64,000 nt of DNA from Nodosilinea nodulosa PCC 7104 (GTDB taxonomy: Bacteria; Cyanobacteriota; Cyanobacteriia; Phormidesmidales; Phormidesmidaceae), in the NCBI RefSeq assembly GCF_000309385.1, contig NZ_JH976537.1, forward strand, positions 4,055,785-4,119,784, written 5' to 3'. Below, piece by piece: positions 4,082 to 35,308 of this stretch. The notes under the pieces are model-generated. The model saw only the letters and a program-made list of their open reading frames with translations, made no database searches and was not told the origin of the DNA. The translations under genes were made by a program, and so were the position numbers. Numbering within the stretch: position 1 is the stretch's first letter; every line of letters begins with the position of its first letter.

Positions 4082-5739
4082 CGCACATCCCCCAAATACT
4101 GGTGAACAAACTGCACGCAGATGGAGCCTTCGCCCACCCCCGAGGCCACTCGCTTGATCGACCCGTGGCGCACATCGCCGACGGCAAACACGCCGGGCAG
4201 GCTGGTCTCAAGCAAAAAGGGCGGCCGCTCCCGCGACCACACCTGCCGGGGCGGAATATCGGTGGTTTGCAAGTCGGGCCCGGTGAGAATATAGCCCCGC
4301 CCGTCGCGCTGAATCTGCCCATCTAGCCAGTCGGTTTGGGGCACCGCGCCGATGAAAATAAACAGCGACTGGGCCGGAACCGTTTCGGTGACTCCGGTTG
4401 CCGAGTTGTGCAGCACCAGCGCCTCCAGGCTGGTGCCCCCCTTGGCCTCAACCACGCTGGTGTGGGTCTGCACGTCAATATTGTCCGTCGCGGCGATCTG
4501 GTCGATCAGGTACTGCGACATGCTTTTGGTCAGCGACTCGCCCCGCACCAGCATCGTCACCGACTTGGCGTACTTCGAGAAGTACATCGCCGCCTGCCCC
4601 GCCGAGTTGGCTCCGCCGATCAGGTACACCGCTTCGCCTTCGCAGGCCAGCGCCTCGGTCTGGGCCGCGCCGTAGTAAACCCCCGCCCCGGTAAACTGTT
4701 CCAGGCCTGGGGTTTCCAGCCGCCGCCACGACACCCCCAGGGCCAAAATCAGCGCGTGGACGCTGATCTCGCTGCCGTCGCTGAGGGTAATTAGCCGGTA
4801 GTCGCTGTCGGTGCGCAGCGATCGCACCGACTGGGGCGTTAGAATCTCGACCCCAAACCGGCGGGCCTGGCTGACGGCGCGGCGGGCCAGGTCGCCCCCG
4901 CTCAGCCCCACCGGAAAGCCCAGGTAGTTTTCAATGCGGGAGCTGGTGCCCGCCTGTCCGCCGGGGGCCTCGCGCTCGATCAGCACCGTGCGCAAGCCTT
5001 CGGAGGCGCCGTAGACCGCCGCCGCCAGTCCGGCGGGGCCACCCCCTACGATCGCCAGGTCGTAGAAGGGCTTAGCCGCTGTGGTTTGCAGACCAATGCG
5101 GTTGGCCACCTCGGCGGTGCTGGGCTGGTGCAGGGGTTCGCCCTCGGGGAACAGCACCAGGGGCAGTTTCGCTTCGGCCACGCAGCCCGCCAGGGTGCGG
5201 GCCTCGTCGCTGCGCTCCACATCCAGCCAGCGGTAGGGAATCTGGTTGCGAGCCAAAAAGTCTTTGATCTCGTGGCTGTGGGGATTCCAGCGATCGCCCA
5301 CCACCCGAATTCCGGCAAAGGCGGGCCTAAAGTGAGCCTGCCAGTCGGCCAGCAGGTCGTCAATCACCGGGTACAGCTTCTCCTCGGGCGGGTCCCAGGG
5401 CTTGAGCAGGTAGTAGTCGAGCTGAACTTCGTTGATGGCGCGAATGGCCGCGTCGGTGTCGCTATAGGCGGTGAGCAGCGCCCGCTTGGCGTCGGGGGCC
5501 AGGGTTACGGCCTGCTCTAAAAATTCCACCCCGCTCATTTCGGGCATGCGCTGGTCAACCAGCAGCAGCGCCACGGGGTCGGCGCGCTGCACGACTTGCC
5601 TGAGCGATTCCAGGGCTTCGGCCCCGGAGCTGGCCCGCATGACGCGGTAGTGTTCGCCGTAGTGCCGCCGCAGATCGCGGGCAATGGTTTGCAGCACATC
5701 GGGGTCGTCATCGACGGTGAAGAGAATGGGTTTGGCCAT
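4078..5739 (-). CDS. Response regulator receiver fused to thioredoxin reductase-like flavoprotein
   Basis: 553 aa. Residues 1-125 are a REC domain with acidic pocket VDDD (10-12), phospho-acceptor Asp62 in LLLVDQRMPE and Lys in LLKPWDP. Residues ~140-215 look like a glutaredoxin/thioredoxin-fold linker (RVVGDRWNPHSHEIKDFLAR). From ~228 a thioredoxin reductase-type domain begins with the FAD motif IVGGGPAGLAAAVYG, then ENYLGFP, a NAD(P) motif YLIGGANSAGQAAMYF and a C-terminal FAD motif VFAVGDVRHGSIKRVASGVGEG. The usual redox CxxC is absent (GAAQ-type sequence at that place), so it is unlikely to reduce thioredoxin directly. It is the first gene of a pair with the overlapping kinase. Confidence 0.92.
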   Translation of the reverse strand: MAKPILFTVDDDPDVLQTIARDLRRHYGEHYRVMRASSGAEALESLRQVVQRADPVALLLVDQRMPEMSGVEFLEQAVTLAPDAKRALLTAYSDTDAAIRAINEVQLDYYLLKPWDPPEEKLYPVIDDLLADWQAHFRPAFAGIRVVGDRWNPHSHEIKDFLARNQIPYRWLDVERSDEARTLAGCVAEAKLPLVLFPEGEPLHQPSTAEVANRIGLQTTAAKPFYDLAIVGGGPAGLAAAVYGASEGLRTVLIEREAPGGQAGTSSRIENYLGFPVGLSGGDLARRAVSQARRFGVEILTPQSVRSLRTDSDYRLITLSDGSEISVHALILALGVSWRRLETPGLEQFTGAGVYYGAAQTEALACEGEAVYLIGGANSAGQAAMYFSKYAKSVTMLVRGESLTKSMSQYLIDQIAATDNIDVQTHTSVVEAKGGTSLEALVLHNSATGVTETVPAQSLFIFIGAVPQTDWLDGQIQRDGRGYILTGPDLQTTDIPPRQVWSRERPPFLLETSLPGVFAVGDVRHGSIKRVASGVGEGSICVQFVHQYLGDVR

Positions 5740-32007: not shown

Positions 32008-32541
32008 CTAGGGGACCTCGACTACCACGGTAGATTCAATTTTCTGGCCATCGTGGGTCAAGGCTTCGTGTCCGTTGGCGTTGAGACCCACGGTTAACTC
32101 GCTTTGTCCGCTGGGCAATTGAGGCAAGTGCAGCCAGGGGCCATAGATGCGCGATGTTTTTTCGCCGTTGACGTAGAGATGGGCATGACCTTCGCCAGGA
32201 AGATTGGCCTGGTTGACATGTTCTGGGGCAAAGCGAAAGTTGGTAGTCTGCACCTCCAGGTTCCATCCCTGCACTGGGTCGGGATACACCATCAGCATGA
32301 CAGTTGGCACAGGCTGACCCGCCGGAATTTCGAGGATGCCGTGGTGGTGGCCCTCTTCCATGTCGTGACCATCGCCCATATCACTACTGGTGCCCATGTC
32401 GTGGCTAGGAGTATGACCGTGGTCTGAGTCAGCCCGAGCGACGAGATGGCCACTGCCCAAGACCAGGGTCAGGGCCATTGTGAACAGCCCCAGGGTCGAT
32501 TTGAGCATCAGGGCCGAGATGGTAGACAATTTCATCGACAT
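32008..32541 (-). CDS. Secreted His/Met-rich protein of unknown function
   Basis: 177 aa. A signal peptide (LGLFTMALTLVLGSGHLVARA) is followed by a histidine/methionine/acid-rich stretch (DSDHGHTPSHDMGTSSDMGD, then GHDMEEGHHHG) and a ~110-aa beta-rich domain (PVPTVMLMVYPDPVQGWNLE, VNGEKTSRIYGPWLHLPQLP). The first part looks like a copper/zinc-binding segment. It lies third in the direction petJ - TPR gene - this gene, close to the copper-responsive regulator pair, so a role in periplasmic copper handling is an inference. No named family recognised with confidence. Confidence 0.75.
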   Translation of the reverse strand: MSMKLSTISALMLKSTLGLFTMALTLVLGSGHLVARADSDHGHTPSHDMGTSSDMGDGHDMEEGHHHGILEIPAGQPVPTVMLMVYPDPVQGWNLEVQTTNFRFAPEHVNQANLPGEGHAHLYVNGEKTSRIYGPWLHLPQLPSGQSELTVGLNANGHEALTHDGQKIESTVVVEVP

Positions 32542-32590: not shown

Positions 32591-33367
32591 CTATCCCAGC
32601 GATATGCTTGGGGTTTGCCACTCGTTGAGCAGAGTGAGAATGTAGTGGTGCAGATAGAGTTGCCCCTGGGCCTTGGCGCAGTCTGAAGCCTGGCGCAAAT
32701 CGGCTAAGCTGCCGGTGCGATCGCCCAATGCCTGCCTCAGCACCCCCCGCTTTAGATAGGTGCGGGCGTGGTCGGGCTCTAGATTCAGCACTTGGTTGAG
32801 GTCGGCCAGGGCATCGCTGACTCGGCCCAGCTGGTGGCAGGCACAGCCACGGTTAAACAGTGCCCGTGTATCTTTGCTGTTGAGAGCCAAAGCTCGATCA
32901 AAGTCGCGCAGGGCCGCCTCTGGCTTGGCCGCCAAAAGTTTAGCCAGGCCGCGATCGTCGTAGATATCAGCTAAGGGCAGCGGATTGGCGGTTAGGGCTA
33001 CCGCCTGATCAAAATCGGCGATCGCATCCGAAAAGTTATGCAGGGCGATCTGGACTAATCCCCGATTGTAGTAGGCCCGATAGTCGTGGGGATGAGCCGC
33101 CAAAACCTCCGTATTGTCGGCGATCGCATCGGCAAAATAGCCGCTGCGGTAGAAGGCCAGCCCTCGGTTAAGGCGGTAGTCAGCAGTTTCGGCCTGGTGC
33201 TCGATCGCCTGGGTACAGGTGGCGATCGCATCCCCGTAGCGTTCCTGCTGAATCTCTAGGAAACAGCGATCGCCAGCCGCGATCGTCGCGTCAGCTTGCG
33301 CCATGCTGGGCCAGCCCACGCTCAATAGCAGGCCCAAACAAAGGGCAACCCATTGATAAATGCCCAT
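32591..33367 (-). CDS. Secreted TPR-repeat protein
   Basis: About 258 aa from ATG 33367, preceded by GAGGTCACTCCT. Signal peptide (GIYQWVALCLGLLLSVGWPSMAQA) then a small Cys-containing start (GDRCFLEIQQERYGDAIATC) and five or six tetratricopeptide repeats (e.g. YRLNRGLAFYRSGYFADAIA; YYNRGLVQIALHNFSDAIADF; TRALFNRGCACHQLGRVSDA). TPR proteins of the lumen or periplasm scaffold assembly of electron-transfer complexes. It follows petJ by 74 bp in the same direction. Confidence 0.88.
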   Translation of the reverse strand: MGIYQWVALCLGLLLSVGWPSMAQADATIAAGDRCFLEIQQERYGDAIATCTQAIEHQAETADYRLNRGLAFYRSGYFADAIADNTEVLAAHPHDYRAYYNRGLVQIALHNFSDAIADFDQAVALTANPLPLADIYDDRGLAKLLAAKPEAALRDFDRALALNSKDTRALFNRGCACHQLGRVSDALADLNQVLNLEPDHARTYLKRGVLRQALGDRTGSLADLRQASDCAKAQGQLYLHHYILTLLNEWQTPSISLG

Positions 33368-33440
33368 AGGAGTGACCTCATTTGACGACAAAACCCCCTA
33401 GCTTGACGGCAGGGGGCGTAGGGAACTGGAGCGACGAAAT

Positions 33441-33773
33441 CTACCACCCTTGCTCAGCCTGGCTCAGCACGTAGGCCGCCACATCGGCAATGTCTCCATC
33501 GCTGAGTCGTCCTTTAAAGGCCGGCATCGCATTTTTGCCGTTGGTCACCTGGCCGACAATCGCCTCGATCGAGGCCATGTCATACTTTTCTAAATCGGCC
33601 TGCTTCAGAGTCTTAGCCCCGTTGACTACGTTGCCGCCGCCAATGTGGCAAGCCGCGCAGTTGTTGCCAAAAATTTGACCGCCGTGGCCTAGGTCAGCGG
33701 CCTGGGCCGCCGGAGCCATCCACAGGGTGAGGGCTACCAGCGCAGCTACCAATGTTAAAGCGAGTCTTCTCAT
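33441..33773 (-). CDS. petJ: Cytochrome c6 (soluble cytochrome c553)
   Basis: 110 aa. A signal peptide ending AAQA-A and a mature protein of ~85 aa with the haem motif CAACH (Cys39/Cys42/His43) and axial Met in [12 protein letters not shown]. It carries electrons in the lumen from the b6f complex to PSI (and to oxidases), replacing plastocyanin when copper is scarce. It is divergent from a BlaI/PetR-like repressor, as expected for the copper switch. Confidence 0.97.
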
Positions 33774-33837
33774 AATCGTTCACAGCTCAAAATCCTCTCT
33801 TGAAGGATTGTCTTGGCAACTCCCATTTGAATCAAAA

Positions 33838-33848
33838 GACAGCTGGTC
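33838..33848. promoter_or_regulatory. GACN5GTC candidate PetR operator
   Basis: GACAGCTGGTC in the 183-bp petJ-petR intergenic region. BlaI-type repressors bind short dyads, and GACN5GTC is, as I recall, the motif proposed for PetR of Synechocystis. It is ~65 bp upstream of the petJ start and ~110 bp upstream of the repressor start. Confidence 0.5.
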
Positions 33849-33956
33849 AACTATTGCAAACTGTAAACTCAGTCTCTGGGCAGCCCCGTGCCCCATCCCC
33901 TAAACTAAACCCTATCAACGCCTGGCCGCCTCACCCCCTCACCTGCGCTTCCCCAA

Positions 33957-34403
33957 ATGTCCCCCCTCCCTCGCCATCGCCCCCACCAGCTCTCCCTCGG
34001 TCCTCTGGAAGCTGAAATTCTGGCCATTATTTGGGCCAAGGGAGGGGCAACGGTCAAAGATATTCACGACCACATTCTGGCCGACCCCGATCGCGACCTG
34101 GCCCAGGCTTCGGTGACGACAGTACTACAGCGACTGGCCAAGAAAGGCTGGCTGCGGCGCGAAGTAATTCAGCCAGAAAAGCCCGGAAAACTGCGGCGGG
34201 TCTACCAGTGGCAGCCCACGGTTTCCCAACAGGAGGCTAAACTGCTGACTGCCCACCAGCAGCTACAGAGCTTTTTGGCGATCGGCAGCCCCGACATTGT
34301 GGCCGCCTTTGCCGATAGCTTAGATACCGCTGAGCTGGATCAGCTCGATGCGATCGCCAGCCGCCTGCGCGCCCTGCGCAGTACCAAACGGGAGGATGTG
34401 TAA
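33957..34403 (+). CDS. petR: BlaI/MecI/CopY-type transcriptional regulator (PetR-like)
   Basis: 148 aa. Winged-helix domain of the BlaI family (LGPLEAEILAIIWAKGGATV, then KDIHDHI, VTTVLQRLAKKGWLRRE) plus a dimerisation/cleavage helix (AKLLTAHQQLQSFL). In Synechocystis the homologous PetR represses petJ and activates petE, and is removed by the protease PetP when copper is present. The next gene overlaps by one base (TAATG) and encodes that protease type, and petJ is divergent, so the same circuit is inferred here. Confidence 0.88.
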   Translation: MSPLPRHRPHQLSLGPLEAEILAIIWAKGGATVKDIHDHILADPDRDLAQASVTTVLQRLAKKGWLRREVIQPEKPGKLRRVYQWQPTVSQQEAKLLTAHQQLQSFLAIGSPDIVAAFADSLDTAELDQLDAIASRLRALRSTKREDV

Positions 34404-35308
34404 TGCACAGCAGCCTGATTGTGCTCACAATTCTGTTCGCCGTGGCATGGCGGTGGCAGTGGCGATGTCCCCAAGGGCGATCGACTCCTATGTCCTGGCA
34501 GGCCCGCTGGGAGTCTGCTCTCAGCACCTTTTGCCTGCCGCCCCTGCTGCTGCTGCTGACCGCCGGGGCCGTGCTTTTCATGGGCCACCACGGCACCATG
34601 ATGGGCTGGTCGGTTAGCCCCACGGGGTGCTGGGCCAGCCTGGGATGCCTGACCTTTTTCATGGGAGTACTGGTCTATTCCCTGGGGCAGGCGGCGGCTA
34701 CCGGGCTGCGGCTGCGGCAATACCCTACCATTACCCTGGCGCAGGGCAGGCAGGCGCGATGTTTGCCCATTGACCTGCCTTGCGCGGCCCAGGTCGGATT
34801 ATGGCGATCGTCGCTACTCGTGAGCCAGGGCTGGCTAGAGCAGCTCACCGCCAGTGAACAGCAGGCTATGCTTGCCCACGAGCAGGCCCATGCCGACTGT
34901 CACGATCCCTTCTGGTTTTTCTGGCTAGGCACGGTGCGACGCTTCGCCATCTGGCTGCCTGGCACCCATATGCTGTGGGAAGAGCTGCTGCTGCTGCGCG
35001 AAATCCGGGCCGACCGACGGGCGGCCCAAACCAGCGATCCGCTGCTGCTGGCGGAACTGTTGGTGAAGGTGTCTCAGCAGATGGCCCTGGCTATGCAGTC
35101 TGCCAACCTCAGCGCCGATTTTACGCCCTCCACAGGCTTCTATGAACCCCTGTTGCTCAGCCGCCTGGAACAGCGGGTCAATGCTCTAATCGAACCCGTC
35201 AGTACATTTGAAGCCCCAGCTTCACCCCTGGGGCGTCTGGTTCTGGGGCGTCTGGCCTGGGTGGCAGCGGCTACGCTGCCGTTAGCTACCATCTGGTTGC
35301 ACACCTGA
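34403..35308 (+). CDS. petP: M56-family membrane metalloprotease (PetP/BlaR1-like)
   Basis: 301 aa. Hydrophobic N-terminal segments (STFCLPPLLLLLTAGAVLFM, LGCLTFFMGVLVYSL) and the zinc motif HEQAH near 158 in AMLAHEQAHADCHDPFWFF, with a downstream Glu-containing helix EIRADRRA as third ligand. It lacks the penicillin-sensor domain of BlaR1, like PetP. Expected to degrade the upstream-encoded PetR upon copper sensing; how copper is perceived is not visible. TAATG coupling with petR. Confidence 0.88.
   Translation: MHSSLIVLTILFAVAWRWQWRCPQGRSTPMSWQARWESALSTFCLPPLLLLLTAGAVLFMGHHGTMMGWSVSPTGCWASLGCLTFFMGVLVYSLGQAAATGLRLRQYPTITLAQGRQARCLPIDLPCAAQVGLWRSSLLVSQGWLEQLTASEQQAMLAHEQAHADCHDPFWFFWLGTVRRFAIWLPGTHMLWEELLLLREIRADRRAAQTSDPLLLAELLVKVSQQMALAMQSANLSADFTPSTGFYEPLLLSRLEQRVNALIEPVSTFEAPASPLGRLVLGRLAWVAAATLPLATIWLHT

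Follow-up and report, generated by a model that had tools for sequence, protein, structure and literature searches.

The petJ-petRP locus

The window analyzed here, a 64,000-nucleotide stretch of the genome of Nodosilinea nodulosa PCC 7104 (G000; 6.89 Mb, two contigs) corresponding to G000:C1:4055785-4119784, carries petJ, the gene for the cytochrome c6 precursor, in divergent orientation to petR, which encodes a BlaI/CopY-family regulator. petR overlaps by one base (TAATG) petP, the gene for a BlaR1-like M56 membrane protease, and the gap between petJ and petR holds the dyad GACAGCTGGTC (Table 1). Both the gene arrangement and the dyad had been described in an earlier reading of the letters alone (the sequence-only reading), and both were confirmed. 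The petJ product passes the NCBIfam equivalog model for cytochrome c6 PetJ (NF045930; 154 bits, cut-off 135), the petR product scores 84.5 bits against PF03965 (cut-off 22.6) and is the sole match to this family at E ≤ 0.001 across the genome, and translation of petP reveals HEQAH at residues 159-163. In a profile search, PetP scored 27.1 bits against PF05569, below the 31-bit cut-off.

Table 1. Features of the petJ-petRP locus, in window coordinates
Feature	Position	Strand	Basis
Secreted His-rich protein; Ig/FnIII-like beta domain, GHxHLY core conserved; possible third petJ-operon gene, gap of ~50 bp	32008-32541	-	
TPR protein; possible second petJ-operon gene, gap of ~50 bp (longest ORF)	32591-33391	-	Pfam TPR models
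petJ, precursor of cytochrome c6 (110 aa) with haem motif CAACH	33441-33773	-	NF045930 and translation
Predicted -10 of petJ, GACAAT, 17 bp from the -35	33807-33812	-	Inferred, NANNNT count
Predicted -35 of petJ, TTGATT, following the dyad after two bases	33830-33835	-	Inferred, TTGA count
Dyad GACAGCTGGTC, putative PetR operator of petJ, centre at about -43	33838-33848		16/16 gaps
Second dyad-like block beside the operator, TTGCAAACTGTAA (plus strand), TTRCA-N3-YGYAA	33854-33866		Conserved in the genus
petR, BlaI/CopY-family regulator, 148 aa	33957-34403	+	PF03965 and tree
petP, 301-aa BlaR1-like M56 membrane protease lacking a sensor domain	34403-35308	+	HEQAH, model, alignments

The assignment of the two proteins as PetR-type and PetP-type, also proposed from the letters, gained support from phylogeny and structure prediction. 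A tree of 45 proteins places the window's regulator among 41 PetR-type proteins, apart from four other BlaI proteins, with support of 100/100; these 41 had been collected for their relatedness to the window's protein, and Synechocystis PetR is not among the 45. The regulator thus does not group with other BlaI proteins, the outcome that the sequence-only reading had named as refuting. After three of the four non-PetR BlaI genes comes a gene for a longer M56 protein. The AlphaFold model of PetP (mean pLDDT 89.6) has BlaR1 entries as its top structural matches, the closest being 8exs_A (Z 12.4, rmsd 5.1, 222 residues). Foldseek searches with this model and with that of the His-rich protein gave no PDB match at E ≤ 0.001.

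The locus is an ordinary member of the known PetR-PetP system and carries a real petJ control site. As in Synechocystis sp. PCC 6803 (slr0240-slr0241), a BlaI-type regulator lies beside a BlaR1-like protease and petJ and petE are both present in the genome; the window's locus differs in that petJ is physically linked and its operator has been derived by comparison, that no dyad is present at petE, and that there are additional candidate targets: the genes for the TPR and His-rich proteins of the locus and, among relatives, one for a PepSY protein. In Synechocystis, slr0601 is said to be a further target of PetR. Another, slr0602, is reported in the available part of PMC7896320. With BlaI-BlaR1 and MecI-MecR1 the system shares a winged-helix regulator that is removed by an M56 membrane protease, whereas PetP lacks a penicillin-binding sensor domain, ending at residue 301, just past a predicted helix at 276-299, and the published PetRP system responds to copper and activates. 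CopY belongs to the same Pfam family; in contrast to it, the window's PetR scores 33.8 bits on the CopY/TcrY model TIGR02698 (cut-off 121.95), and the published PetR is removed by proteolysis.

A conserved site upstream of petJ

Bare GACN5GTC is weak evidence and was rejected as such, because it occurs at 569 sites in the genome, eight of them in the window. Its rarity relative to a reversed control (3394 sites) was also considered as restriction avoidance; this reading was rejected, as GACNkGTC is about as low at other spacings in the 105 kb of G000 examined, so that N5 is nothing special. On the petJ strand, the dyad and its flanks read TTGACCAGCTGTCTTTTGA (33832-33850). The extended form TTGAC-N5-GTC-N-TTTGA occurs at this dyad and at one other place in the genome; its reversed control has no match there. 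Across 57 genomes, 62 strict sites compare with 20 of the reversed control, which means that about one third of strict matches may be due to chance.

Among 57 relatives, 16 divergent petJ-petR gaps were found, and the core is present in all 16, with the exact extended form in 13. The block shared by the aligned gaps is TTGAC-N5-GTC-[TG]-TTTGA, from which G021, G031 and G041 each differ by one base. These gaps are not independent, since 12 of the 16 come from Nodosilinea alone and four (G031, G039, G041, G050) from other genera. Named PetR loci with a divergent petJ contain the core in 13 of 17 cases, several of the 80 named loci being from genomes already in the 16-gap set; all four misses are Moorena, in which the core is lacking in 4/4. 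A class sample added 12 further divergent pairs, in 10 of which the dyad and petJ are no more than 300 bp apart; of the two exceptions, G079 has a dyad one base off and G082 one about 690 bp from petJ, near petR.

Outside the genus, the extended operator was found upstream of petJ in 42 of 60 PetR-positive genomes and in none of six PetR-negative genomes, two of which (G033 and G046) show weak PF03965 matches, while shuffled petJ upstream regions would give 0.025 extended operators per 68. The 60 are a subset of the 75 class genomes with both PetR and petJ; the G066 upstream region and G136 are not part of it, and no dyad was found in the petJ upstream region of G136, where the start codon is unsure. 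Eighteen of the 60 have no extended petJ site. G102, whose site (TATTGAC) fails the strict pattern, was counted as lacking, and the petJ gene of G030 has two tandem dyads that are not of the extended form. The dyad was also present at petJ copies unlinked to petR, which ties it to petJ itself. Sequence comparison thus identifies the dyad as a conserved and widespread site of petJ, to which PetR presumably binds.

The second block, TTRCA-N3-YGYAA, offers a different account, in which PetR works through this block or the dyad belongs to another regulator. The block resembles the cop box of CopY. It is present in 9 of 12 Nodosilinea petJ upstream regions, with about zero in shuffled sequences, and this conservation favors such an account within the genus; it occurs, however, in just 1 of 42 dyad-bearing petJ upstream regions of other genera, and the presence of the extended petJ site in 42 of 60 PetR-positive genomes but in none of the six PetR-negative ones argues for PetR as the protein that uses the dyad. 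We therefore consider the alternative unlikely.

A literature text search for GACN5GTC as a published PetR motif gave unrelated papers only; Garcia-Canas et al. 2021, reportedly on PetR-PetP of Synechocystis sp. PCC 6803, lay outside it. The second strict site of G000 (C1:5981078-5981096) is located 66 nt before an ORF for a 104-aa His/Met-rich protein with GLTT repeats (C1:5980697-5981011, L203). It is no more than a lead, since about 0.35 strict matches are expected per genome (20 in 57, reversed control). Several other strict sites examined lie inside genes or beside unrelated genes.

Position of the dyad at the petJ promoter

Eleven of 12 Nodosilinea gaps have 62-66 bp between the end of the dyad and the petJ start; in G002, where the start codon is uncertain, the distance is 80 bp. 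Outside the genus, 38 of 40 petJ dyads taken without selection are followed by TTGA after two bases; the count of 52/54 obtained for the petJ sites chosen by the extended pattern is partly by construction. NANNNT is found 24-26 bases past the dyad in 51 of these 54 sites, where the median over all offsets is 17%, and a stricter -10 form in 43/54, against 6%. Taking the single best -10 hexamer within 45 bases instead places the dyad at -42.5/-43.5 in just 17 of the 54 sites, and the petJ promoter calls therefore stay predictions. The offsets of the predicted -35 and -10 elements would put the centre of the dyad near -43. Class II activators sit close to -43. From the conserved spacing we infer that the dyad lies just upstream of the predicted petJ promoter elements, where an activator site would be.

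Were PetR instead to repress petJ here, with another factor activating the gene, it would act as other members of its family do: BlaI and MecI are repressors. CopY is a repressor as well, according to the available part of PMC10141476. A repressor would be at odds, however, with a dyad located upstream of the predicted -35 and -10 and not over them, and the PetR described in the accessible part of PMC7896320 activates petJ. Repression of petJ thus appears improbable, and activation from the dyad remains the preferred reading.

Possible control of petRP by the dyad

The sequence-only reading had proposed that a single dyad may control both petJ and petRP, which would make PetR autoregulatory. 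Conservation of the site upholds the petJ half of this proposal. With regard to petRP, the petJ-petR gap holds no other GACN5GTC, and G017 and the second petRP copy of G004, neither of which adjoins petJ, retain a dyad at about 97 bp before petR. In addition, of 63 named loci lacking a divergent petJ at up to 600 bp, 15 have a dyad in the 300 bp upstream of petR, frequently between -66 and -105, where about 1.6 loci would be expected at the genome rate of G000; the G082 dyad, near petR and far from petJ, points the same way. Within the genus, however, petR lies anywhere between 78 and 282 bp from the dyad whereas the distance to petJ is nearly fixed, and G008 and G010, which keep petRP without petJ, have no dyad within the 11 kb read. 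Because of this variable spacing, control of petRP by the dyad is unproven in Nodosilinea, and shared control at this locus seems rather doubtful. The excess of 15 over the ~1.6 expected makes autoregulation by PetR, or control of another divergent target, likely in some lineages; petRP control is thus possible, most of all outside Nodosilinea.

GACN5GTC within 160 bp upstream of petR, with petJ not adjacent, which may reflect autoregulation of petRP, was noted at the named PetR loci L246, L248, L265, L269, L279, L298, L303 and L308.

The petE arm

The locus had been read as a complete switch. This is an overstatement, since petE (G000:C1:4144139-4144438) lies ~53 kb downstream of petP and has no recognizable site. 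The search for the same motif upstream of petE, suggested at the time, has now been run: within 300 bp upstream of the window's petE there is no GACN5GTC, there are two one-mismatch sites, and the best PWM score has a P of 0.11 against background. A hidden petE operator was sought by exact, one-mismatch and PWM searches of 25 Nodosilinea petE upstream regions, which gave a single exact match (G021), not common to its sisters, and PWM P values of at least 0.077 (lowest in G016, 0.077, and G000, 0.11), values somewhat too large because some random background pieces came from operator-bearing loci. The petE arm is therefore missing, degenerate or indirect in this genome.

Outside the genus, 76 petE upstream regions were analyzed (G103, in which no start was found, was left out). 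GACN5GTC lies within 175 bp of petE in 22 of 72 PetR-positive genomes, against about two expected by shuffling, and in none of four PetR-negative genomes. Among the 41 genomes with an operator at petJ that were scored for both genes, the petE operator is also present in 16 and absent in 25. The petE dyads occupy other positions than those of petJ. TTGA follows by two bases in 0 of 21, and a -10 element at 24-26 bases past the dyad is found in 4/18 (loose NANNNT) or 1/18 (stricter form); the sites of G027 and G077 are outside the position test. In 11 of 20 petE sites the stricter -10 lies 21-23 bases past the dyad, and others are located over the spacer or after the -10. The dyad thus appears more constant at petJ than at petE, where it is shifted to positions that could block polymerase. 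Because petE dyads overlap the -35, the spacer or the start, the sign of control would be set by position; that is, activation or repression by PetR probably follows from where the dyad lies.

Since petE is a published repressed target and is mostly without the dyad, PetR may bind petE through sites that the motif misses. In Chlamydomonas, according to the available part of PMC7896320, the plastocyanin gene is constitutive and CRR1 activates only the c6 gene when copper is short. The missing petE site would give a similar logic here, although CRR1 is an unrelated, plant-specific regulator.

Further candidate targets

Two genes downstream of petJ on the same strand may be transcribed with it (Table 1). 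Relatives of the TPR protein are found on PetR loci of Oculatella, Okeania, Trichodesmium and Hydrocoleum. The His-rich protein has no informative match in Pfam, NCBIfam or PDB sequences; its model shows a confident beta-sandwich after a His-rich linker, and because structure comparison returned common Ig/FnIII-like folds only (Z up to 9.0), no function can be given to it. Matches to the protein occur in 29 genomes, in one of them as a short fragment. In 17 of the 29 its gene is no more than 3 kb from petJ, and in a further three (G018, G032, G040) it sits near petR in the absence of petJ, giving 20/29 linked to petJ or petR.

In relatives, a gene for a PepSY-TM protein (PF03929) with a His-rich loop has the operator upstream in all nine copies found in Nodosilinea (eight strict; G018 with one mismatch). 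These include L206:3635-5077 and its relatives at L204, L207, L208, L210, L211 and L214. A tenth copy lies in G052, a genome of another family, and is outside this count; two stops interrupt the copy in G019, a genome with neither petJ nor PetRP. The window's genome has no PepSY relative at 1e-30, and a literature search found no paper that treats petJ and PepSY together in cyanobacteria. On the basis of gene order and operator matches, the petJ-TPR-His-rich row and, in relatives, the PepSY gene are further candidate targets of PetR.

Linkage and distribution

Physical linkage of petJ to petRP had been put forward as novel and is already in print. According to the available part of PMC7896320, PetRP was discovered through its neighborhood with petE or petJ, and the accessible part of PMC9252766 displays petJ as a moderately conserved petRP neighbor (VCS 0.20, GeCoViz). 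To the neighborhoods shown in that part, our analysis adds the operator, its spacing and the neighboring genes. Among the listed gene places, divergent petJ-petR pairs occur in at least 16 of the 75 class genomes having both PetR and petJ, and petJ is divergent within 600 bp in 17 of 80 named PetR loci. Of 26 Nodosilinea genomes, the window's included, 13 have PetRP and petJ, seven PetRP only, one petJ only and five neither; contig edges affect two of the seven and the single petJ-only genome, and two of the five are less than 87% complete. Across 126 class genomes, PF03965, a count that also takes in other BlaI proteins, is matched in 69/91 with both petE and petJ and in 11/35 with one of them. 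G008, G010, G017 and the second G004 copy have a locus without petJ, TPR and His-rich genes, in which a hydrolase gene abuts petR.

Several remnants and duplications were also observed. Phormidium tenue FACHB-1052 (G004; L130, L129) carries petRP twice; petJ and the TPR and His-rich genes accompany one copy and are missing from the other. In the window's genome, G000:C1:280275-280535 (L162) encodes a fragment of a second PetP, matching at 57% over residues 207-300 and with one stop, a remnant of a lost copy. G011 (L124, ~4900-5000) retains an orphan petJ promoter, with operator and -10 intact and petJ gone.

PetP and copper

In a set of 119 distinct PetP proteins of 240-380 aa, M60, G61, H159, E160 and H163 are among the invariant columns, and H2 (97%), M66 (97%) and H300 (99%) are nearly so; the start codon was chosen nearest the expected place, which may favor His2. 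An alignment of 55 rows, comprising the window's protein and 54 of the 69 available rows, has H2, M60 and H300 invariant. In the PetP model, helices span residues 2-18, 32-60, 73-104 and 276-299, and the protease is located between the last two of them. This topology would place H2, M60/M66 and H300 on one membrane face and HEXXH on the other, and the model therefore suggests H2, M60, M66 and H300 as a testable candidate copper site opposite the protease face. M60, M66 and H300 are all missing from three M56 proteins that pair with other BlaI regulators; one of the three has His aligned at 2 and 66, in a weak N-terminal alignment.

A model for PetR action

We favor, with a probability of roughly three in four, a PetR-PetP copper system whose target petJ is linked to it in one locus, with the dyad as the petJ activation site. 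In Synechocystis, according to the available part of PMC7896320, PetR activates petJ and represses petE, and copper leads to PetP-dependent loss of PetR; the copper steps and the sign of control proposed here follow that work by analogy. When copper is short, PetR would be stable and would bind TTGAC-N5-GTC-N-TTTGA just upstream of the petJ -35, activating petJ and perhaps also the downstream TPR and His-rich genes. In the presence of copper, PetP would degrade PetR and petJ would be switched off.

The data also lead us to put forward, tentatively, a wider model in which PetR may be a position-coded dual regulator. Bound at about -43, it would activate petJ, the PepSY gene and the His-rich genes; bound three or more bases nearer or over the start, it would repress petE. 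Many cyanobacteria, Nodosilinea included, would lack the petE arm and possess a c6-only switch, and PetP would sense copper through His2, Met60, Met66 and His300 on its lumenal or periplasmic face. How PetR activates one gene yet represses another, and how copper acts on PetP, are named as open questions in the available part of PMC7896320. With an operator of fixed promoter geometry, four residues of PetP and extra candidate members of the copper response, both questions become directly testable.
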